Positions 1-17,901 of a stretch of DNA of 64,000 nt are shown here, piece by piece. The notes beneath the pieces are model-generated. The model ran no database searches. It was given only the letters and a program-made list of their open reading frames with translations, and was not told the origin of the DNA. This DNA is from an uncultured Lysobacteraceae bacterium (GTDB lineage Bacteria; Pseudomonadota; Gammaproteobacteria; Xanthomonadales; Xanthomonadaceae). Each line of letters starts with the position of its first letter. Position 1 is the stretch's first letter. The position numbers and the translations under genes were made by a program. The stretch is taken from NCBI GenBank assembly GCA_902825775.1, contig CADECF010000003.1:111800-175799 (forward strand), in the 5' to 3' direction.

Positions 1-93
1 CAAAAGCCGCTCCCGCAAAAAAGCGCTCGGATGTCGATCCCGGCGTCGCTCGTTCGTCAATGGAGTAGTCCACCAAAATCGAGGCAACGCACC

Positions 94-426
94 ATGACCC
101 ACCGCGGAAGCTGCCATTGCGGCCAGATCGCCTTCGAGTTCGAAGGCGATCTCAAGAATGCCGTGTCCTGCAACTGTTCGATCTGCTCGCGCAAAGGGGC
201 GCTGCTATGGGCCGCCGATGCGGCGCAGTTCCGCCTGCTCGATCCGCAGGCGGCGATGGGCGCCTACGCTTTCAACAAGCGCGAGTTGCAGCATCGTTTC
301 TGCACGACCTGCGGCATCCATACGCATGCCGAAGGCGATGGCTGGATCGCCGTGAATCTGCGTTGTCTGGAGGAATTCGACCTCGCAAGCGTGGAGGTCG
401 TGAATTTCGACGGCCGCTCGGCGTGA
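94..426 (+). CDS. GFA family (glutathione-dependent formaldehyde-activating-like) zinc protein
   Basis: A 110-residue protein of the GFA/CENP-V fold. Visible zinc ligands are the N-terminal C-H-C-G element (SCHCGQ), a C-N-C-S-I-C cluster near residue 32 and a later C-T-T-C-G element, which is the usual layout of the family. Family members bind structural and catalytic zinc; few have a proven substrate, so formaldehyde activation should not be assumed. An in-frame ATG lies upstream at 31, but the ATG at 94 is preceded by GAGGC at a good distance and starts directly at the conserved domain, so I chose 94. It stands alone before the autotransporter gene. Confidence 0.85.
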   Translation: MTHRGSCHCGQIAFEFEGDLKNAVSCNCSICSRKGALLWAADAAQFRLLDPQAAMGAYAFNKRELQHRFCTTCGIHTHAEGDGWIAVNLRCLEEFDLASVEVVNFDGRSA

Positions 427-2335: not shown

Positions 2336-2371
2336 CGCGAGACGATATTGCAAAGCCCCCGCAACGAAAAA

Positions 2372-2403
2372 AAAGGCCGGGCTTTCGCCTGGCCTTTCGT
2401 TTG
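2372..2403 (+). terminator. Intrinsic terminator after the autotransporter gene
   Basis: An 11-bp hairpin (AAAGGCCGGGC / GCCTGGCCTTT, loop TTTC) is followed by TCGTTTGG. It lies 36 bases after the stop codon and ends where the left attachment repeat begins. Confidence 0.8.
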
Positions 2404-2418
2404 GTGCCGAAGGTGGGA
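2402..2418. repeat. attL: 17-bp copy of the tRNA-Leu 3' end
   Basis: TGGTGCCGAAGGTGGGA is identical to 17678-17694; the match breaks on both sides. It contains the complement of the CCA end, the acceptor-stem 3' strand and part of the T arm. It marks the distal end of the integrated element. Confidence 0.85.
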
Positions 2419-2549: not shown

Positions 2550-3263
2550 TCATGCATGACTTTCAAATGCTGGGCCGCAGCCGTCCATCAACGCTGGCGG
2601 TAGAGAGTGGGGTTGTGGCGGGATCTCTTGGCCGCCAAACAGAATCCTTCTCTCTTCTCCGAGCGCGTCCCTCCGGCCAAAGCCATAGTTGCTCAACGCC
2701 GGATTCGGTTCGATAACCGTTTCCAGACACGCACCAATGACGGCAAATAAGTCAGCCCGAATCAGGGTGAGCATAATGTCGCCCTCGGTCCATCCGGATT
2801 TGCGGCGTGTTAACTGAGGTGTGCCTCCGTGTGTGTACTTATGAAGCCACTTTGCCCGGCCACCCCTTTTTAGTTCATCAACGATAGTTTGGATTGCAGG
2901 GAACATAGGAGCTAGTGCTCGGGCCATCTCGCCGAGCATCGGAATATCAGCGCCTCCGTTCTCGACGGGGCTCGTTGGCAATGCTTGAATTTCTTCGCAT
3001 GTCGCTACGTACATCAACCAAAAAGCAGCGGTCGAGGCCTCAAGTATTGGTCTCAGCAGCGCGCCAGCTGTTCCAAACTCTCCAGCCGCGGCAACCCTTA
3101 TCAGGCCAGAATGGTGTTCGCATGCAAGATCGACGGCGCAGCGCGCGAAGTTAGCTCTAAGCGACGGGGCGGCTCCTTGGGGTAACAAAGCCTTCATCCG
3201 ATCATTCTGCATTCTAGATTGCGCGATCCTTCTTTGAATTAGATCTTGCGACTCTTCGTTCAT
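2550..3263 (-). CDS. Conserved hypothetical cargo protein (DUF6988-like)
   Basis: A 237-residue soluble, mostly helical protein with no signal peptide or membrane segment. Visible features are a paired histidine region (ACEHHSGLI, about residues 49-57), a 'GALLRPILEASTAAFWLMY' helix (about 67-85) and a 'KYTHGGTPQLTRR' motif (about 141-153). From memory these resemble the DUF6988/DUF5677-type helical families, whose function is unknown. It is the second gene of a minus-strand pair: the upstream gene (3272-4108) ends 8 bases before this start. The pair sits directly inside attL, a typical cargo position. A role in defence or host interaction is only inferred from position. Confidence 0.7.
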   Translation of the reverse strand: MNEESQDLIQRRIAQSRMQNDRMKALLPQGAAPSLRANFARCAVDLACEHHSGLIRVAAAGEFGTAGALLRPILEASTAAFWLMYVATCEEIQALPTSPVENGGADIPMLGEMARALAPMFPAIQTIVDELKRGGRAKWLHKYTHGGTPQLTRRKSGWTEGDIMLTLIRADLFAVIGACLETVIEPNPALSNYGFGRRDALGEERRILFGGQEIPPQPHSLPPALMDGCGPAFESHA

Positions 3264-3271
3264 GTCGGCAC

Positions 3272-4108
3272 CTATGCAAAGCGGTCGCGATTGCGATGAG
3301 CGGATAACGTTCTAAACCAATCCTCTGGGTTCGTCAGTACGCCCTCTTGTCGTAGCAGAAGCATATCTCCGCTAAACCGGATCACCTCGTTCTGCGCGGC
3401 CTCTTTGACCTCTTGATCGAGTAGAGGAACTCGGCTTAGGCGGCCGAGCACTTCAGTGGGATAGTCTTCGATTGAAAGGCTCTTGTAGAGATTTTTGTGC
3501 ATCGCCCTATCGAACTCATATGCCTCGCTCCTAAGCGCTGAAGCTTTCGCCTCTTCTTCAGAATTCAAGGGAACATTCTTCCGATCCTTAGCCGCTTGTT
3601 GAAGATTGTGCTGAATATTTCTATGGACTGGATGGAGTATCGCGGTCGTCAAGTCGAACAGCATCATATGAACGAACGGTCGCAGCATGCTTCGTATAAC
3701 TTCCGGTTTGGTTCCAAGCTTGACCATTACGGAGCGCACGGCCTGCGCGTGCATATACGACTCTTCGGCCGTCGGCGCTGAATCCAATCGACCAAGTTTG
3801 CTGTTTGCCGCAACGCTTTCTGTTCCAAGTGTTTCAGCCAATTGACGCAACTGATCGATTGCCAGATCTGCTTCGACAAGTTTTTCGTCCAACCGTCTGG
3901 TCTTGGCTTCGACACCCAGTCCTTTCACCGACTCAAACCGGTCAATAGTGGCGGCGAACAGCAGAAGTATCGCCCCCGCGATACATACCGCAGTCATTGC
4001 TGAGTTGTGGCCGTAAGCAGCCATGACTCCAAACCAGAGCAAGCTGCCTCCGGCGAAGAGGAATGCCACGCTCACTATTACAGCGGCTATTTCCTTAATT
4101 TTATTCAT
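3272..4108 (-). CDS. Two-helix membrane protein with long cytoplasmic helical domain
   Basis: 278 residues. Two transmembrane helices are clear near the N-terminus (about residues 7-29 and 36-56), followed by a charged, coiled-coil-prone segment (about 60-100) and a helical C-terminal domain with 'RSMLRPFVHMMLFDLTTAI' near residue 135. No enzymatic motif was recognised. It is probably co-transcribed with 2550-3263, because only 8 bases separate them. A small membrane protein paired with a soluble helical protein at the edge of a mobile element suggests accessory cargo (possibly defence), but nothing in the sequence proves it. Base composition appears less GC-rich than chromosomal neighbours. 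Confidence 0.7.
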   Translation of the reverse strand: MNKIKEIAAVIVSVAFLFAGGSLLWFGVMAAYGHNSAMTAVCIAGAILLLFAATIDRFESVKGLGVEAKTRRLDEKLVEADLAIDQLRQLAETLGTESVAANSKLGRLDSAPTAEESYMHAQAVRSVMVKLGTKPEVIRSMLRPFVHMMLFDLTTAILHPVHRNIQHNLQQAAKDRKNVPLNSEEEAKASALRSEAYEFDRAMHKNLYKSLSIEDYPTEVLGRLSRVPLLDQEVKEAAQNEVIRFSGDMLLLRQEGVLTNPEDWFRTLSAHRNRDRFA

Positions 4109-5268: not shown

Positions 5269-5439
5269 GAGCGCCCGAGGACTGCCCGAGGTCGCGGCTC
5301 CCTCTCCGTCCCCGGCTGGGTGTACGGACCCGACCCTGCACGTTGTCAACAAGATCGCCGACGTTCGATTAGGGCCCACCCTCGGAGAACTAGAGTCGGC
5401 TTCGGCGAAGTTTTACAGGCAAGTTCCCGATGCCGGCGC

Positions 5440-5501
5440 TGACCGAATCCTGTTTTTTTTCGTCCCGCTTCGTTGCCGTTGACCGAATCCTGTTTTTTTT
5501 C
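5440..5501. repeat. 22-bp direct repeat, period 40
   Basis: TGACCGAATCCTG followed by eight T and a C occurs at 5440-5461 and 5480-5501, exactly 40 bases apart, with unrelated spacer. On the minus strand each copy reads GA8CAGGATTCGGTCA. Function unknown. Confidence 0.85.
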
Positions 5502-8858: not shown

Positions 8859-9188
8859 CTGGGTCACTTCTAGATCAACCTTCTCGACTCAACTGCAGAC
8901 CGTCCCAGCGGCTCCACCAAAGGTGCCGCTTGCCGATGCTGATCCACAGAGAAGAGCGAGAAAACTCAATTTCGATGCGCATGTATTTGAGACCCCCTGA
9001 TTGATCCCCTGCTGACGTGAGGGGTGGCCGTGGGCGTATCAGAACATCTCCGAAAAAACAAAAAAACCTCTGCAGGCGGCTATGGATTCGGCAGCGAATC
9101 GATATCCGCGGATAAGACTTGTTGACGACATCTAAACCTCGCGCGAATGCCCCTGAAAAACAGGCCGCTGCGCCCAAAAGGAAACGCA
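8859..9188. other. 330-base gap before the giant gene
   Basis: No gene is supported. A small CCCCT...AGGGG inverted repeat sits at 9006-9024, and the ribosome-binding site AAAGGA of the next gene is at its end. The gap presumably contains the promoter for the giant gene; no clear consensus could be picked by eye. Confidence 0.4.
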
Positions 9189-12100
9189 ATGACAGACCGT
9201 GAATTGACTCTCGACGACTTTGATGCAATCTCCAAGTCGTCGCCTGAGGTGACCCTTGAGTCACTTCCGGCAGCCACTGCCCCCGCCTCTGCGGAGCGTC
9301 CGGCTTCCCCTGACGGTCGAGGGTTTCTCTCGACCGTTGCACACCAAGACTTCATTCCCTATGCCTTCGCGCGCGCAGCCGCCGCCGACGGTATGGATCT
9401 CGACCTCGACTTCAACCTCGGTGATGAACTGCAGGAGAAGGAGTGGGACGAACTGACCGCCGGTCTGACCGACACGGCGAAAGAGAACATCGCGAGCTCG
9501 GCGAAGAGCAGGGCTCACGCCTACTTCCTGACCGACCTCGCCAAAGAATCGCAACAGGCCGACGACTACCTCGCCTCCTATGGTGGTTGGGGCATCGCCG
9601 GTCGCATCGGCGCGAACGTGTTCGACCCGACCAACGTCCTGCTCGCAATGGGCACGGGCGGTGTCGGCGTCCTCACGAAGGCCGAGCGCCTCGCGCACGC
9701 TGCAAAGATCGCGACCACGGCCGCCGAGCGCGCTGCGGTTGTCGACGGTGCCGGCGCTGCGCTGAAGGCCGGCCACGCCGCGAACGTCCTGAAGATCGGC
9801 ATCCCGGCCGCCGCCGAGAACATCGGCTTGCAGGCCATCGCCAACGAAGGCGACCCGAACCGTGACGGCTGGGATCTGGCGTACGCCGGTCTCGGCGCTC
9901 TCGCCATCGGCGGCGTCACCGGGCGCGTCCTGTCGGGCGCTGAGAAGCGCACCCTGCAGCGCCTGCACTCCGTCGAGAAGGCGAAGCTGGAGGCTCTGGA
10001 ACTGCGCAACGCAGTCGACGCCCGCCGCTCTGCCATCACTGGCGAGCTCGGCGGTGACATCTCTGGTGCGCGCGCACAGCTGGGCGACGCCGCCGGCCGC
10101 GCTGCCGTGTTCCTCGGCGAGCGCGATACCGACCTGACCGACTACTCCGCTTTCCGCCACGCGCTGGAATCGAACGGCAAGGCGAACGCGAAGAACCCCG
10201 AGTCGTCCGCGCTGGGCATCGACCAGTTCACCAAAGGCACGTGGAAGGGCGTCGTCGCCAAGGCGAAACCGAAGTGGGCCGAAGGTCTGTCCGAGGCCGA
10301 GCTCCTGGCTGCTCGCACCGACCCGAAGAAGTCCGCCGAGATGGTGGCCGTCCTCGACGCCGAGAACACCGCCGCACTGCGCCGCGCCAACGCGCCGGTC
10401 AACCACTTCACTCTGTACGCCACGCACCACTTCGGTCCCAGCAAGGGCGTCCGCTTCGCCAAGGCTTCGGCCGAGACGCTGATGGACGACATCCTGTCGG
10501 CCGACCAGCTGAAGGCGAACGCGTACCTGAAGGGCCTGACGAAAGCGCAGGCGATGGCGCATTGGACCGAGAGCGCGCGCAAGGGTGGCGTGGATCTGGG
10601 AGGCATGCTCGACCGCATCCCGGCCAACGGCACCGAAGCGCGCCGTGCTGCACAGCTGGCGGCGTTCGACAAGGACACCGCGACCACGCGTCTGGCGGAA
10701 CTGGAGGACACCCTCAAGGCCCACCAAGAGAACGTCGCGAAGCTCACCTCAGACGCCGAGGGGACCATCCCCTCCGGCGAACTGCGCAAGCTGCGCCGCG
10801 AGGTGGACAAGCTGCAGAGCGAGCTCAACGGCCACAAGGGCACGCCTACGGCGAAGCTCGCGGAAGCCGTGACTCGCCTTGAGCAAGAGATTGCCGGCCT
10901 GTCCGAAGTGCGCGCACGGCGCATCAAGGCGATGAAGGCCGAAGACGACCTGAAGCTGGGACCGGAGGTCTCGGCGAGTAAGCATCGGGTCAAGCTGCGC
11001 GAGAGCGCCGCCGACAACATTACCAAGATCGACCGCACCAACCTGTCGCGCAAGCTCGGCAAGGCGAAGGACGCCCACGGGCGTGCCCGCTTCTCGCTGA
11101 AGGAGCGCCTGCAGAACATCGAGCCGCGCGCCCTGAAGGGCGAGGCTGCGGAGAAAGCGCGCGCCGCTCTCCGTGCGCTACAGGGCGACGACACGCCTGT
11201 CCGGCTGACCGCCGAAGGTAACGAGCTCCGCAAGGCGCTCGGCCTGCACGACAACATGGCGAAGGCGCACGCCGCCGACGGGGCAACCCGCGGTGAACTT
11301 CAGGGTCTCCTGAAGGCGCTGAAGCCGAAGCAGAAGGCGCTCGACGATCTCGACTCGCTGGACAACCTGCAGTCGGCCGCGGACTTCCGTATGGAGTCCT
11401 TGAGTGCCACCGGAAGTGCACCGTCGTTCGGTCCCGATACGCTGTCCGCCGCTCGCGCGGTGGGCTTCGACCCGGGCCTGCACGCTGCGCTGGAAGGAAC
11501 GGCTGCGGGCGCACCTGTTGCGCAGATGAAGCTGGCCGGCGCGGTGAACCTGTTCGGCAAGGGCACCTTCGCTGGTGTCCTGCGTGGTTCCGACAACGAA
11601 GTGGTCCGACGCGAGTTGGGCATGCTGGTCGGCAACTCGCTGGGGCAGGCAGACGATTCCGTCGTCGGCGTCGGCGCGTCCGAAGTCGCTGCGCATCTGC
11701 AGAAGACGATGGCCGGCAAGTTCAACGCTGCGGTGCTGAAGAGCTACAGCGCGTGGATGCAAGAGAACGGCATCTGGCGTGGCCGCCAGTGGAGCCGAGA
11801 CGTGCGTGGTCAGTACATGCGCGAATTGGGCCTGCACATCCGTGGACAGGATTCCGATAGCGCCGCGATCAAGGCCGCCGCCGGCCGCGTGGCTGGTGCC
11901 TTCAAGGACTTCCTCGACGAGGCGAAGGCTGCGGGCGTGAAGGGCTTTGAGAACGTCGAAGCGAACGCCAACTGGCTGCCGCGTGTGTTCGACTTCCACG
12001 CCTTCCATGCGCTCAACACCAAGGTCGGTCCCGACCAGCTGGCCCTTCTCGTACAGAAGGGCATCCAGCAGTTGTACCCCGAGCTCGCTGACGCGCCGGC

Positions 12101-14174
12101 CAACAAGGTCGCTACCGCCTACATCAAGCGCATGCGCGAACTGCGCGTCGGCAACGACGCCGGTCTGATGCAGGGCATGTCGTTCGACGACGTCGGCTTC
12201 CTGCGCCAGTTCCTCGGCGAGTCCGGCCTCGGGTCGGATGAGATCGAAGACGTCGTGTCCAAGTTCGCCGCTGCGAAGCGCCCGAGCAAGGCTGCAGCCA
12301 AACCGCTGCTCGACGAGAAGCGCAAGCTGACCACGAAGATGCGTGTCCTGAAGGAGCGCAAGCGCACCCGCGCAGCGCTGGGCAAAGGTTCACCCAAGGC
12401 CGACAAGCGCCTCACCGAGATCGAAGCCCGACTGGCCGAGATCAAGACCGAGCTCGACACCGCCGCGACCGAACCGGACGCAAAGTCCGTGACGAACCAA
12501 GAGGGCGGCTTCCGCCACGCCAAGATGCGCCAGAAGTTCGACGAGAACTTCGCTATGGAGCTCCGCGACGTGAAGGCCAACGACGGCTCGACTGTACGGG
12601 TTGCGATCAGCGACCTGTTTGAGAATAACGTCGAAGCCCTGTTCGGACGCTACTCGCGCACCATGTCGGGCCACATCGGCTTGGCTAAGGTGGGCATCAA
12701 GTCCCGCGGCGACTTTGAGACGCGCTTGCGTCGAGTCGAACGGGAACTGGAAGCGGATCCTGACCAGCTGGCGAACGTCAAGAAGATGGCCGGCGCAGCG
12801 TACGACATCATCACCGCGCGGCCGTTGGAAGACGCCAACCTGTGGTCTGAGCTCATGCGCACCGGCCGCGACATCGCCTACTCCACGCAGATGGAGAACG
12901 CGGGTTTGGCGAACATCCCCGACATCGCCTCGCTGCTCGCCTACGGCAACTTCAAGTACACCGCCAAGGCATTCTTCGGCGGCGACGTGTTCGGCGCGAT
13001 GTGGAAGCGCGGCACCGACGGCCGTCTCATGGACGACCTGATGCAGGAGATCGAAGAGACCACCGGCATCGGCACGGACTTCTTGAACAACGCGATCCAC
13101 TCGTCCTACGACGTGAGCGAGGAATACGCGGAAGCGATGGTGGGAGGCAAGTGGCTCCCCCGCACGCTGTCCTCAGGCTTCTCCAAGGTGGGCCACGGTG
13201 CGCGCGTAACGTCGCGTGCGGTGACCGCCGGCTCCGGCATGGGTGCGCTCAACGCACTCTCGCAGCGCATGGCCGCTCGCAACATCATCTACCGCATCAA
13301 GGACGACGTCCTGAAGGGTGGAAGGTTTAGCGATGCCCGCGCCGCCGCGCTGGGGTTGGACAAGGCCATGAAGGATCGCATCGCCAAGCAGCTGAAGGCT
13401 CACACCGAGTGGACCAAAGGCGACATGGGCGGGAAGATCCAGCGCGTCAACTTCAACAAGTGGGACGACCTCGACGCGCGTGACGCGTTCCTGTACGCCG
13501 TCCACCGCGAAGCACGGAAGAACATCCAAGAAGAAGACCTCGGGGACACCTTCCTGTTTCAGCACAAGGGCATCGGCAAAGTCCTCACGCAGTTCCGCCG
13601 CTTCGGCATCACTGCATGGACCAAGCAGACCCTCCGCGGTATCGCAGAACACGACGCCGAGACGGCGACTCGCGTGGCCCTGCAGTTCACCCTCGCCGCG
13701 GGTGTGTGGCAAGCAAAGCACCAGATGGTCATCGCCGGCATGGAAGCCGCGGGCGTCGACGACGAGAAGATCCAGAAGTACCGGGACGCGAATCTGACTG
13801 GTGGGCGCATCGCCGCCGCCGGCCTGCGCAACTCGGGCTTCGCTGCACTGATGCCCGACATCTACGACTCGACCGTGGGCTACGCCTTCGGCACGCCGTT
13901 GTTCGATGTCCGCAACTCCGGCAACAGCAGCGGCCTATTCGCGGGTATTCCGCTGGTTGGCTTGACTCGGAATATCGGCGCGGCGGCATCGGGTACATGG
14001 CAGGCCATCGTGCGCGGCGACAAGCAGTTCGATCAGAGGGATGCGCGTGCGTGGCAGGCCCTGGTTCCGTTCGGTCACCACCTGTTGGTGGCTCCTGTAT
14101 TCCAGGCGCTGACCGAACACCTTCCCGAAGGAGACGAGGATCCAGACAATGAGTCGGTCCAGTGGTTCAAGTGA
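9189..14174 (+). CDS. Giant phage ejection/internal virion-like protein with lytic transglycosylase domain
   Basis: 1661 residues. The N-terminus (1-115) is acidic. Residues about 125-265 contain glycine-rich hydrophobic stretches (GIAGRIGANVFDPTN). Residues about 318-460 match the SLT-like lysozyme fold used by podovirus ejection proteins (T7 gp16 type): HALESNGKANAKNP with Glu327 as likely catalytic acid, then SALGIDQFTKGTW and 'LYATHHFGPSKG'. Residues about 500-760 and 1030-1110 are long charged helices. The last 220 residues are amphipathic/hydrophobic, including 'ATRVALQFTLAAGVWQ'. Family knowledge: such proteins are ejected and digest peptidoglycan to make a trans-envelope channel. AAAGGA precedes the ATG at 9189. 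No other virion gene is nearby, which is odd. A polyvalent phage protein is an alternative. Confidence 0.8.
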   Translation: MTDRELTLDDFDAISKSSPEVTLESLPAATAPASAERPASPDGRGFLSTVAHQDFIPYAFARAAAADGMDLDLDFNLGDELQEKEWDELTAGLTDTAKENIASSAKSRAHAYFLTDLAKESQQADDYLASYGGWGIAGRIGANVFDPTNVLLAMGTGGVGVLTKAERLAHAAKIATTAAERAAVVDGAGAALKAGHAANVLKIGIPAAAENIGLQAIANEGDPNRDGWDLAYAGLGALAIGGVTGRVLSGAEKRTLQRLHSVEKAKLEALELRNAVDARRSAITGELGGDISGARAQLGDAAGRAAVFLGERDTDLTDYSAFRHALESNGKANAKNPESSALGIDQFTKGTWKGVVAKAKPKWAEGLSEAELLAARTDPKKSAEMVAVLDAENTAALRRANAPVNHFTLYATHHFGPSKGVRFAKASAETLMDDILSADQLKANAYLKGLTKAQAMAHWTESARKGGVDLGGMLDRIPANGTEARRAAQLAAFDKDTATTRLAELEDTLKAHQENVAKLTSDAEGTIPSGELRKLRREVDKLQSELNGHKGTPTAKLAEAVTRLEQEIAGLSEVRARRIKAMKAEDDLKLGPEVSASKHRVKLRESAADNITKIDRTNLSRKLGKAKDAHGRARFSLKERLQNIEPRALKGEAAEKARAALRALQGDDTPVRLTAEGNELRKALGLHDNMAKAHAADGATRGELQGLLKALKPKQKALDDLDSLDNLQSAADFRMESLSATGSAPSFGPDTLSAARAVGFDPGLHAALEGTAAGAPVAQMKLAGAVNLFGKGTFAGVLRGSDNEVVRRELGMLVGNSLGQADDSVVGVGASEVAAHLQKTMAGKFNAAVLKSYSAWMQENGIWRGRQWSRDVRGQYMRELGLHIRGQDSDSAAIKAAAGRVAGAFKDFLDEAKAAGVKGFENVEANANWLPRVFDFHAFHALNTKVGPDQLALLVQKGIQQLYPELADAPANKVATAYIKRMRELRVGNDAGLMQGMSFDDVGFLRQFLGESGLGSDEIEDVVSKFAAAKRPSKAAAKPLLDEKRKLTTKMRVLKERKRTRAALGKGSPKADKRLTEIEARLAEIKTELDTAATEPDAKSVTNQEGGFRHAKMRQKFDENFAMELRDVKANDGSTVRVAISDLFENNVEALFGRYSRTMSGHIGLAKVGIKSRGDFETRLRRVERELEADPDQLANVKKMAGAAYDIITARPLEDANLWSELMRTGRDIAYSTQMENAGLANIPDIASLLAYGNFKYTAKAFFGGDVFGAMWKRGTDGRLMDDLMQEIEETTGIGTDFLNNAIHSSYDVSEEYAEAMVGGKWLPRTLSSGFSKVGHGARVTSRAVTAGSGMGALNALSQRMAARNIIYRIKDDVLKGGRFSDARAAALGLDKAMKDRIAKQLKAHTEWTKGDMGGKIQRVNFNKWDDLDARDAFLYAVHREARKNIQEEDLGDTFLFQHKGIGKVLTQFRRFGITAWTKQTLRGIAEHDAETATRVALQFTLAAGVWQAKHQMVIAGMEAAGVDDEKIQKYRDANLTGGRIAAAGLRNSGFAALMPDIYDSTVGYAFGTPLFDVRNSGNSSGLFAGIPLVGLTRNIGAAASGTWQAIVRGDKQFDQRDARAWQALVPFGHHLLVAPVFQALTEHLPEGDEDPDNESVQWFK

Positions 14175-14215
14175 AACAATAAGGGGAGGGGCGGGTTACC
14201 GCCTTTCCCCGTTTC
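14172..14215 (+). terminator. Strong hairpin after the giant gene
   Basis: GGGGAGGGGCGGG pairs with ACCGCCTTTCCCC (14183-14210, two G-T pairs), and flanking GAAAC / GTTTC extend the stem. It begins at the stop codon of the giant gene and separates it from the convergent gene at 14234. Confidence 0.75.
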
Positions 14216-14233: not shown

Positions 14234-15040
14234 CTAGAAAAGCTCCTTCAGCGAAGCTACGAGGCCCACCACGGCAACGATGCCAACCAAAATACTCCAG
14301 ACCCAATGCTCGCTGATTAGCTCCACCAATACCGCGGGATGATAGCCAGTCTTCTCTCTCCAAGAAGCAGTAGTTTTGATTGAGCCATCAAGAACTCGCT
14401 CAAGGATGTTGGACATCAAATCCACCTTGCGAAGAGTGGATTGGTGAAGCTTGACATACTCACCAGCATCAAACGCATCCGCCTCTTGCTGCCCTGTCAA
14501 AGCGTCTCTCGCCGTGATTCGGTTGAGCTCCATAAGGCTGTGAAGACGTCCAGATGTTCCATGCGGTGCGTAGCCGGGGCCAAACTGATTGATCAACTCG
14601 CGAGCCAAATCGAACTTACGCGAATCGTCTACTGTAAAAGATTCGCCGCCGAGTACCTTGTAACGATGCTCGATAGCTTGAAACCCGTAGTTGATGTCTC
14701 GCATATTCCAGTGGATGAAACTGTACCCATGCCGCGACTTTATAAAGTCGAAATATTCATCAAGCATGTGCCTCTCTAGTTCGTCGTAACGCTGATTTAC
14801 ATCGGCGAGCGGAACTCGTAGCTGCTCTGCCGACTTGTGTATTGAGAACGAAGAGGTCTGGCCGGTCGTGAAATTTCTGGCGGCGATTGAGGTAACTCTG
14901 GGTGTTCTTCCGTCCTTAATGTCGTAGAACGATTCGCACGAGTAATGCAAGACGATGTACATGTCTCGGCGTCTATCCAGTTCTTCAAACGCCTTTCGCG
15001 CCGCCCTGCGGCGTCTAAACTTGGTCAGTTGTTCGCCCAC
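14234..15040 (-). CDS. Tail-anchored protein with a DEDD exonuclease-like N-terminal domain
   Basis: 268 residues. A single transmembrane helix lies at the extreme C-terminus (about 246-264), so the bulk should face the cytoplasm. The soluble part has an RNase H/DEDD-like pattern: a beta-strand pair around MYIVLHYSCESF and VTSIAARNF, then FIHWNMRDINYGF (His110, Asp115), then ADAFDAGEYVKLH (Asp191). The usual first D-x-E is S34-C-E36, so catalysis is uncertain. The fold assignment is my inference from motif spacing. It follows the AbiJ-like gene (15111-15983) by 70 bases in the same direction, and the two probably form an operon beside the integrase. A membrane-tethered effector of a defence pair is plausible. 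Confidence 0.55.
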   Translation of the reverse strand: MGEQLTKFRRRRAARKAFEELDRRRDMYIVLHYSCESFYDIKDGRTPRVTSIAARNFTTGQTSSFSIHKSAEQLRVPLADVNQRYDELERHMLDEYFDFIKSRHGYSFIHWNMRDINYGFQAIEHRYKVLGGESFTVDDSRKFDLARELINQFGPGYAPHGTSGRLHSLMELNRITARDALTGQQEADAFDAGEYVKLHQSTLRKVDLMSNILERVLDGSIKTTASWREKTGYHPAVLVELISEHWVWSILVGIVAVVGLVASLKELF

Positions 15041-15110
15041 GAATCCCCCTGCGTTGTTCTGACATTATGAGTTAAACCGCGCTTTTAGGGCGCGTCATTT
15101 CCAATAAATG

Positions 15111-15983
15111 CTATGTGCGCAGCAGGCCAAGATTGGAGCGAAGCTCTTCGGCTGCCGCGCGCAGAACTTGGAGGCAAATTTTGGCTGTATGTTCTCGTGG
15201 TGAGAACCCCGACGCCATCTGTTCAAACGGGTGAATATAGTTTCTGAAACTTCGAAGAGCGTGGCTGAACTTCTGTGTGTCGTGCTCGATGAGGCCCAAG
15301 TCTCTAGCTACATCAATGAAGTTGCTGAGTGACCAGTCTTGAAATCGTTTGACCTTTCCATCTGCATGCTTGGGCGCGGCGGAAGATTCATTGAAGGCGC
15401 GCGGATAGATAGTGGCAAGACCAAGGAGCGCGCCCTCAAGCGTACTGCCTGCGAGTAGGATAACTGCCAACGGCGAGCCAGAGGAATAGCATCTTTCGAT
15501 CTCTCGGAGCCGCTGCTCTAGCACCGCTGCAACGCTTGGCTCTAATCCGAGACCGCTGAACGCCACATCCTTAAACTCCCGGCTTAGGAAGGCGTCCTCA
15601 GCCTGTGCGGGATTCTGAGGTTCCTGAATCTCAACCTTCTCAAGCTTCTTGAATAGTATTTCAGCGCCTTCTCGTTCCAGCCGCCACTTATCAAACGCAA
15701 GGTACTGGCTAAACTCAGCGATCAGGTTATCCAACTCGTTCAAGCGGCCAACGAAGTTGACCGGCGCAAAAGCCTCCTTGATGCACTGGTCTAACTTGGC
15801 TGTCCCATTGATCTTGGAAAGGCGCTCGTCGGTATACATCCACCTAGAGGGAAAGCCCTGGCCGTAGCTATCCTGAAAGCCTAGTGCGTTGAAGAATCTC
15901 ACGAGTTGCGGCCCCGAGCGATACTCGGTTCGCTCGTTGATCATGTCGCGGAGACATTGCAGTGTCCTTTGGCTGAGGATCAT
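15111..15983 (-). CDS. Putative abortive-infection protein (AbiJ-NTD-like plus HEPN-like C-terminus)
   Basis: 290 residues, soluble. Residues 1-95 (LQCLRDMINE, GPQLVRFFNALGF, YGQGFPSRWMYTDERL, SKING) resemble the AbiJ N-terminal-domain-3 type found in abortive-infection proteins. The C-terminal half (about 160-285) is helical and ends with 'LRSFRNYIHPFEQ', where Arg244 and His251 give an R-x6-H arrangement like HEPN ribonucleases. It also has AGSTLEGALLGLA and a following charged helix, typical of Abi C-terminal helical domains. Family knowledge: such proteins sense infection and arrest growth, often by RNA cleavage. It is upstream of, and co-directional with, the tail-anchored protein at 14234-15040. 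Domain calls are from memory. Confidence 0.6.
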   Translation of the reverse strand: MILSQRTLQCLRDMINERTEYRSGPQLVRFFNALGFQDSYGQGFPSRWMYTDERLSKINGTAKLDQCIKEAFAPVNFVGRLNELDNLIAEFSQYLAFDKWRLEREGAEILFKKLEKVEIQEPQNPAQAEDAFLSREFKDVAFSGLGLEPSVAAVLEQRLREIERCYSSGSPLAVILLAGSTLEGALLGLATIYPRAFNESSAAPKHADGKVKRFQDWSLSNFIDVARDLGLIEHDTQKFSHALRSFRNYIHPFEQMASGFSPREHTAKICLQVLRAAAEELRSNLGLLRT

Positions 15984-16189: not shown

Positions 16190-17584
16190 TCACTTCCGTC
16201 GCTTCGCAGCCCGCGCTATCGTCAGCCTCTTCGCGGCGTTGCGTATAAGTGCCGTTACATCCTTGCCGTAGGTCACGGCCTTGATGGCCGCCGCCCTGCG
16301 CTCTACGCTGGCAGGATCAGTGTAATGCTCCTCGGTTATCGTCATAGAGTGATGCCCGAGTATCTGCTGCCTTAGCCGTAGGGAGATTCCCGCCGCTTCC
16401 ATCTGCGTTTCTACCGAGTGCCGGAAGCCGTGCGCGACCAATGCCTCGTCGGTTATACCTGCCTTGCGGATCCAGTAGGCCAACCTCTTCCCTATTAAAA
16501 TCCCGCGCTTGTCATCTGCTCCTGATGTGAGCAGCCCGGGAATCAGAAAGCCGTCTGCACTGGTTTCAGTCAGGCGCAGGACGAGGGGCTGGATCACCGG
16601 ATGCAGGGGAATCATGCGCCGTGCTGAGGGCGTTTTTCCGGACGGATTGAACATCGCTGTCTCAGTGACGTTCTTAACGCGCATTGAGCAGAGTTCCTCT
16701 CGCCGCGCTCCCGTGTACGCCATAAGGACAACCAAAGGCCACATAGGATCGTCCTGAGGAACGTACCTCAACACCTTGAGCAACTCCTCTGGCTGCCACG
16801 ACCGGCGGCCGTCGCCTTCATGCTGACCACGCGCCGCGTCCCTGATTAGGCGACCGACCTTGTCGAAGGGATTCGCAGTGACGATGCCGCGCACCTCCAG
16901 CCAGTCGTAGAACTGCCGAACAGTGTTCAGGGCGAAGCGCTTGGTATCCGTCGTCACGTCCCACGGAAGCAGCACTTCCTCGACGTACTCAGTGGCCCGC
17001 GGCTTAGTGATGCTGGACGCTTCGGTGTCACCTCCGGCCCACTTCAGGAACTTCGCGAGGTGTCTGCGCTTATCGCCTAAGGTGGCCCTGCGGATCGATG
17101 AGGATTCTTCGTGCTTGAGCCACCGCTCAGATAGAAGGTCCAGCATGCCGCTGTCGGTGCCAGAGAGGACTGCGCCTGCCTTTCGGATCGCCGCCAGTTC
17201 GGGAGAGGGCAGGAGTGGGCGACCCTCGTCGTCGGTGTCCACTTCCTTTGCTCGACGTGTCAGCAGGGCGCTCAGCGCCGCGTCTAGGTCAACCTCTGCA
17301 ACCTTCGGCTTTACGTCGCCGGCTTCAACGGCTGCGCGCAACTCTTGAGCGAGCTTGACCAGCGCCGCCGCGTCGAACGGCTCAGGCCCTTTCCCCGCGT
17401 TGCGGATCTGTTTGTGGAAGTCCGCAATGACCTCGTGCCGAGCATGCAGAGCCTGCACATGGTCACGGGTGCGGAGGGATCGCTCTAGGGTTTTCCTGCC
17501 AAGCGCGTGCTGCGCTGGTTTCGGCACGGGTACTTGCACGTACCACACGCCGCCGCGTTGGGTGAGGTATGTCGGGGGCGACAT
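16190..17584 (-). CDS. Tyrosine site-specific integrase
   Basis: 464 residues. The N-terminal segment YLTQRGGVWYVQVPVP is the DUF6538-type start common in these integrases. A core-binding region spans about 145-240 and the catalytic domain about 262-430. Catalytic residues visible: Arg294 (TGARREEL), Lys317 (SGKTP), His385 and Arg388 (HGFRH), His411 (LGHHS) and Tyr421 (EEHYTD). All are present, so it is probably active. It is the gene closest to the intact tRNA-Leu, reading away from it, and should recombine the 17-bp core at 17678-17694. Short GGGGACTC/GGGGAGTC repeats between its start and the tRNA could be arm-type sites. Confidence 0.95.
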   Translation of the reverse strand: MSPPTYLTQRGGVWYVQVPVPKPAQHALGRKTLERSLRTRDHVQALHARHEVIADFHKQIRNAGKGPEPFDAAALVKLAQELRAAVEAGDVKPKVAEVDLDAALSALLTRRAKEVDTDDEGRPLLPSPELAAIRKAGAVLSGTDSGMLDLLSERWLKHEESSSIRRATLGDKRRHLAKFLKWAGGDTEASSITKPRATEYVEEVLLPWDVTTDTKRFALNTVRQFYDWLEVRGIVTANPFDKVGRLIRDAARGQHEGDGRRSWQPEELLKVLRYVPQDDPMWPLVVLMAYTGARREELCSMRVKNVTETAMFNPSGKTPSARRMIPLHPVIQPLVLRLTETSADGFLIPGLLTSGADDKRGILIGKRLAYWIRKAGITDEALVAHGFRHSVETQMEAAGISLRLRQQILGHHSMTITEEHYTDPASVERRAAAIKAVTYGKDVTALIRNAAKRLTIARAAKRRK

Positions 17585-17677: not shown

Positions 17678-17694
17678 TGGTGCCGAAGGTGGGA
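17678..17694. repeat. attR: 17-bp core inside the tRNA-Leu 3' end
   Basis: Identical to 2402-2418. Because integration left this copy in the functional tRNA gene, the tRNA remains intact. The flanking bases CTT AGGTGTAAC at 17667-17677 resemble TTAGGTGTTAC near 5769 inside the element. Confidence 0.85.
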
Positions 17695-17764
17695 CTCGAA
17701 CCCACACGCTTTTAAGGGCGGCGGATTTTGAGTCCGCTGCGTCTACCGATTCCGCCACTTCGGC
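17678..17764 (-). tRNA. tRNA-Leu (anticodon CAA)
   Basis: An 87-nt tRNA including an encoded CCA. The acceptor stem GCCGAAG pairs with CTTCGGC; the anticodon stem GCGGA/TCCGC encloses loop CTCAAAA with anticodon CAA; there is a long class II variable arm and a GGTTCGAGTCC T arm. It is the integration target of the neighbouring element. Confidence 0.95.
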
Positions 17765-17803
17765 GCGGCCGCAAATTATAGCGGAGTCGAGGGCGCCGGT
17801 GTC

Positions 17804-17901
17804 GTAGCCCGGGTGGAGCGGAGCGATATCCGGGGTCGGAGCGACGCGCGCGGCATGGAGATGGCGATCCCGGGTATCGCCTTCGGCTCAACCCGGGCTA
17901 C
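17804..17901. repeat. Imperfect palindrome with GTAGCCCGGGT arms
   Basis: GTAGCCCGGGT (17804-17814) is the exact inverse of ACCCGGGCTAC (17891-17901). The ends of a REP-like element fill the gap between the tRNA and the DUF2214 gene. Confidence 0.75.

Follow-up and report, generated by a model that had tools for sequence, protein, structure and literature searches.

Probable independent cargo genes, one AbiJ/HEPN-like and one of the PHROG 8766 family, in a prophage-like element of a Lysobacteraceae genome

Two adjacent genes, A and B, at the attR end of a 15.3-kb element in an uncultured Lysobacteraceae bacterium are probably two independent accessory (moron-type) genes of a prophage remnant in tRNA-Leu, with A as a stand-alone HEPN-type protein and B as single-gene temperate-phage cargo. 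A sequence-only reading of the same DNA had proposed that they form a two-gene anti-phage system. Its description of the locus was confirmed, in that two co-directional ORFs lie 70 bases apart beside the integrase, and the residues it had named (E36, D115 and D191 in B, R244 and H251 in A) are at those positions. The partnership itself was not borne out in other genomes, where A and B relatives were found apart at every locus examined. We accept both as real genes since relatives of each are found across phyla. The window, by which we mean the whole 64,000-nucleotide stretch of DNA that was analysed, lies on contig 3 of a 3.76 Mb genome, and all coordinates (Table 1) refer to it.

Table 1. Position and evidence for the element's features in the window
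Feature	Position	Strand	Evidence or detail
Left end of the element, an attL-like repeat identical to the 17 bp at attR	2402-2418	.	repeat search; junction in same-genus genome G002
Internal-virion-protein-like gene	9147-14174	+	1675 aa; phrog_342 1.3e-106
Gene B, PHROG 8766 family, weak PolB-exonuclease-like similarity, degenerate acid set, predicted C-terminal membrane helix	14234-15040	-	268 aa, GTG start
A-B gap, 70 bases, without promoter-like or terminator-like site	15041-15110	-	site scan
Gene A, HEPN-type abortive-infection-like, AbiJ/Stk2-like N-terminal stretch, R244-x6-H251	15111-15983	-	290 aa, ATG start
Tyrosine integrase of the element	16190-17584	-	Phage_integrase E 6.7e-14; phrog_1 2.6e-39
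attR-like 17-bp repeat, end of tRNA-Leu	17678-17694	.	repeat search
tRNA-Leu	17678-17764	-	integration target of the element

The element and its integration site

Because exact 17-bp repeats stand at both ends and a same-genus genome has a junction like that of an empty site, the segment 2402-17694 is most likely a 15.3-kb insertion in tRNA-Leu. In that genome (G002, L211), window positions 2371-2418 were matched (48 bases, 93.8%, some 30 of which lie beyond the repeat), and this left-flank match directly adjoins the tRNA-Leu match, as expected of an empty site. A second genome of the genus (G001, L209) matched the left flank only farther out, at window 93-343 with 73%, and no match to the left flank was found in a third (G003, L210). 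The internal-virion-protein-like gene suggests that the element is a prophage remnant, possibly podovirus-like; a serine resolvase and an HNH protein are also encoded. Low-GC genes sit at both ends of the element, and the GC content of genes A and B (0.54 and 0.51) compares with 0.65 in the neighbouring virion gene.

Several other features of this region were noted. At the left end, window 2550-4108 holds a second low-GC cargo pair on the minus strand, made up of a DUF6988 protein (2550-3263) and a 278-aa protein (3272-4108) in which a hydrophobic stretch is visible by eye at the N-terminus. Two near-identical 25-base repeats with T-run ends lie 40 bases apart at 5437-5501, and a 12-pair terminator-like hairpin (14183-14210, plus strand) follows just past the virion gene, converging with gene B. 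Outside the element, 17803-17901 is a dispersed-repeat copy with inverted ends, parts of which, among the matches listed and with tRNA matches mixed in, match many places in its own genome and in two of the three genus-mates.

Gene B, a probably membrane-associated family with weak exonuclease likeness

Gene B is by sequence a member of PHROG 8766 (window protein E 4e-71), as are all 31 members of our alignment, window included. The PHROG library gives this family no function, and no paper under that name was found in the open-access literature; the parts of two papers available to us (PMC9122126, PMC9519451) hold no lead on B. A viral scan with B as a single-sequence query returned no relative. 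Relatives at 33-54% identity were collected from 45 viral loci, and family members occur in phages or plasmids whose hosts include Gram-negative and Gram-positive bacteria as well as cyanobacteria. Gene B mostly stands alone: in 22 of 33 non-redundant viral loci no ORF on its strand lies within 150 bp, as is true of 17 of the 25 loci with both flanks in view; at 8 of the 33, the two neighbouring ORFs are on the opposite strand. In Streptococcus phage Javan150, for example, B lies between opposite-strand genes, near a Cro/CI regulator and an integrase. The C-terminal membrane helix predicted for the window protein, whose hydropathy peaks at residues 246-264, is a trait of the family, and 27 of 31 members have it by a simple rule rather than a topology predictor (19-residue hydropathy of at least 1.6 within the last 75 residues).

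An exonuclease-like character had also been suggested for B, and here the profile similarity held up as weak and repeated. The PolB exonuclease model PF03104 matches 7 of 31 members (best 3.5e-4) and PF10108 matches one, all below threshold; the DNA-polymerase PHROG 262 matches 16 (best 8.3e-4), and an exonuclease PHROG matches two. In a rescan of ten members, PF03104 was matched by two, and in one of these (L029) residues 14-127 align with profile positions 77-182, including the HWNMRD stretch, which in our own reading may be motif II. Unrelated models match a few members at like strength (phrog_12702 at 8.4e-4 in one, phrog_9077 at 0.0032 in three, Nudc_N at 0.01 in three). A profile-profile comparison (hhalign) with nine PF10108 proteins was weak (probability 0.7%, P 0.079) and showed a strand-helix-W-N pattern, with W111-N112 under the motif-II W-N and D115 opposite a gap. 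A search of solved-structure profiles with B gave nothing relevant, only BRICK1 at E 0.58. B may have an exonuclease fold of the RNase H-like kind.

The DEDD chemistry suggested along with this fold was not supported. PolB-type DEDD 3'-5' exonucleases share with B the sub-threshold matches and the strand-helix-W-N pattern, but B differs in having Ser or Ala for the first Asp, a variable E36/D115 pair, no third-motif Asp, and an added membrane helix. Replacement of the first motif-I Asp by Ser, as reported for the window protein, was verified across the family (S34 in 30 of 31, Ala in the other). In the same alignment, E36 is kept in 27, N112 in 29, D115 in 26, H199 in 18 and D207 in 16. The proposed motif residue D191 is Asp in only 7, and we reject it as a catalytic residue. 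Invariant in all 31 are H32, Y33, E72, E89, H110, W111, M113, R114, R126, N173, E186, S201, T202 and K205. In 48 non-identical members, positions 36 and 115 read ED in 40, QN in five, QD in one and EN in one, with one member cut off. From these column counts and residue pairs, invariance in B falls on residues other than the nuclease acids, and the four conserved acids in three motifs that define DEDD enzymes are not found across the family.

It is unlikely, in our estimate, that B is nevertheless an active membrane-tethered exonuclease with a rearranged site built from S34, E36 and D115 together with invariant E72, E89 or E186. Such an enzyme would agree with the retention of E36 in 41 of 47 and D115 in 42 of 48 non-identical members, with unvarying E72 and E89 (47 of 47 each) and E186 (48 of 48), and with the reach of the L029 match over HWNMRD. 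However, E36 and D115 tend to vary together, and the paired change to Q36/N115 occurs at two separate places in a midpoint-rooted FastTree tree (L158 with L055, L060 and L061; and L052), with Q36 alone in L031 and N115 alone in L049. No third-motif Asp is conserved across the family either (D207 in 28 of 48; position 199 His or Ser in 42 of 48), and we lowered our estimate slightly because D115 falls opposite a gap in the PF10108 comparison.

B is most likely a membrane-tethered, degenerate exonuclease-like protein, and its genomic setting makes an anti-phage role plausible. The notion that a protein anchored in the membrane acts on nucleic acid where phage DNA enters the cell has a parallel in SNIPE, a membrane-bound nuclease described, in the part of the paper available to us, as cutting phage DNA at injection (PMC13190303). 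We claim no sequence link, and B differs from SNIPE as described there in probably having no complete nuclease site (PMC13190303). More speculatively, and in our view less likely than not, the family may have arisen from a PolB-type exonuclease domain whose catalytic acids were lost and which acquired a membrane tail along with an invariant H-Y / H-W-x-M-R / S-T-x-x-K pocket, and may now serve as a membrane-bound sensor of phage DNA or nucleotides that excludes other phages.

Gene A and its neighbourhoods

Gene A looks like a HEPN-type protein. Its relatives were confirmed at 124 genome loci across phyla, the best 80 of these at 43-83% best-segment identity, and 58 intact relatives were aligned with the window protein (n = 59, 47-83% identity). 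In this alignment R244 is present in 58 members and R247, N248 and H251 in all 59, with a spacer of six, such that the R-x4-6-H motif of the HEPN superfamily is near-invariant across the family. A spacer of six residues is allowed for in HEPN motifs in the available part of the survey by Anantharaman et al. (PMC3710099), which also places DUF4145 among the HEPN families. The DUF4145 profile matches 36 of 59 members (best 2.6e-5); the window protein itself reaches 13.6 bits against a cut-off of 23.1.

The earlier assignment of A to an AbiJ/HEPN-like group stands at the level of the family and not for the window protein. The PADLOC AbiJ profile matches 16 of 59 members (best 1.5e-5), and AbiJ_NTD3 matches one, at E 0.095. 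No AbiJ profile was matched by the window protein at E up to 1, for which reason we dropped the reading of A as AbiJ proper; nor does any Pfam or NCBIfam model score above cut-off with it. Across the family, one of 59 members matches any NCBIfam model at E 0.01. Comparison members for AbiJ_NTD3 (PF18860) were sought in 90 genomes and found in none, and a search of solved structures with the A profile gave FAM118B (E 0.29 and 0.43) and ApcH (1.2) as best matches, which were not used. The PADLOC Stk2 profile (PDLC02375) matches all 59 members; in the window protein the likeness comes to about 50 residues, with residues 18-69 aligned to profile positions 20-72 of 500, and, unlike in Stk2, no protein kinase Pfam domain was matched in A.

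The AbiJ/HEPN class, including solos in restriction-modification (R-M) operons, was described in 2013 by Anantharaman et al. (PMC3710099). In the part of that account available to us, AbiJ proteins bear several N-terminal domains, two of which, AbiJ-NTD1 and NTD3, are found on protein kinases as well, and some AbiJ solos and other HEPN proteins are in operons with R-M systems (PMC3710099). Gene A fits this account well, sharing with AbiJ/HEPN proteins and HEPN solos a separate N-terminal part, a HEPN-like C-terminus bearing R-x6-H and, at some loci, an R-M gene neighbourhood. It is most likely an abortive-infection RNase of a known kind, with RNase activity predicted from its motif.

Gene A is often found in defence neighbourhoods, and its partner is not fixed, as the mixed Pfam families among 91 immediate neighbours indicate. 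Among the families listed (25 of 51, where a single protein can match several), R-M-type matches were N6_N4_Mtase (6), N6_Mtase (2), HsdS (2), ResIII (2) and AlwI (1). Further matches were DUF4391 (2), ApeA (2), caspase (2), AbiH (1), TIR (1), DUF4011 (4) and AAA_11 (4), and others were Phage_lysozyme (3), TatD (2), HTH_3 (2) and LysE (1). In six near-copy phage contigs (L064, L065, L007, L008, L066, L067), the A relative is flanked by a pair of large phage ORFs that by eye are terminase-like and portal-like.

These neighbourhoods bear on a modular reading, in which A would combine with many different effectors, caspase, trypsin-like, DUF2971-like or methylase, and B would be one such. In Prevotella and Hallella (L012:6001-8312, L138), a caspase-like ORF directly adjoins or overlaps the A relative, and R-M genes are neighbours of A at some loci. 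What we take to be a trypsin-like gene lies beside the A relative in L063, and a presumably DUF2971-like gene comes after it in the six phage contigs. The DUF2971-like cases, however, come from closely related contigs, and a same-strand ORF, as called mechanically, lies within 150 bp in only 44 of 88 loci upstream and 47 of 88 downstream. The neighbouring families vary and include non-defence ones such as Phage_lysozyme, TatD and LysE, a pattern that is that of a solo gene in defence neighbourhoods, and we regard the modular reading as improbable. We hold it just as improbable that A and B are decaying, functionless passengers of a dead prophage. The small size of the element (15 kb) and the few phage genes recognised in it, on a partial annotation, would agree with decay, but both ORFs are full length and have kept the family-invariant residues.

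Co-occurrence of the two genes

At the window locus A and B may be co-transcribed, since they share a direction and no promoter could be recognised in the 70 bases that separate them. A scan of 2.2 kb gave one promoter-like site (mean of shuffles 0.9) and three terminator-like sites (mean 2.2), none of them inside the gap, and the RNA fold of the gap is not special (z 0.30).

Across other loci the two genes do not accompany each other. The B profile had no match among the ORFs of 95 A loci (with a positive control run), and the A profile had none at 45 viral B loci. With better profiles and more loci, B was found at 0 of 111 A loci (E up to 1) and A at 0 of 58 B loci (E up to 10), again with positive controls run. 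The loci taken in were the best 80 of 124 A genome loci, 6 of 27 plasmid matches and 1 of 8 phage matches. These counts are to be read with the reach of the flanks in mind: 16 of the 111 A loci have only 1-2 kb, other loci are short contigs and the six A phage contigs are near-copies, and 11 of the 45 viral B loci have fewer than 100 bases upstream, with two of the 58 B loci (L002 and L003) being one place. The nearest A relative seen (83%, Luteimonas colneyensis, L075) is without B, and the nearest B relative seen (63-66%, on a Robbsia plasmid, L011) is without A. That plasmid has, some 1 kb away from the B relative and on the opposite strand, a gene annotated as HEPN (L011:7879-8769), to which the A profile gave no match.

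Whole genomes were also counted. With the window's genome included, A was present in 10 and B in 5 of 398 genomes of a phylum sample, and in 7 and 2 of 398 in an order sample; both genes occurred together only in the window's genome. As a pairing test these joint counts are uninformative, because only about 0.09 joint genomes are expected by chance. In print, we found neither the A+B pair nor the B family in the open-access literature.

We therefore reject, on the absence of co-occurrence at 111 A and 58 B loci, a two-gene anti-phage system in which A is sensor or toxin and B a nuclease or membrane effector: its common strand, 70-base spacing, promoter-free gap and cargo slot beside the integrase stand against partner-less nearest relatives and the frequent solitary position of B, and we consider it highly improbable.

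Under the explanation we favour, that of two independent genes, each would act by itself. The C-terminal half of A bears the R-x6-H motif of metal-independent HEPN RNases, following an N-terminal stretch common to AbiJ- and Stk2-type defence proteins. The N-terminal part may sense infection or the failure of a neighbouring restriction system, upon which the HEPN part would cleave RNA and growth would stop. The soluble domain of B, possibly with a PolB-type 3'-5' exonuclease fold and apparently without a complete set of metal-binding acids, would be held at the inner membrane by its C-terminal helix, where it may bind nucleic acid or a nucleotide and hinder incoming phage by binding or signalling, not by DEDD catalysis.

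With this comparison a false two-gene candidate falls away, and two clear candidates of one gene each are left. Gene A adds a large, well-conserved family to the known AbiJ/HEPN class, and gene B marks an uncharacterised family of wide spread, in which the strongest conservation falls outside the nuclease residues. If it is true that B acts at the membrane against incoming phage, this would be a new use of an exonuclease-type fold.
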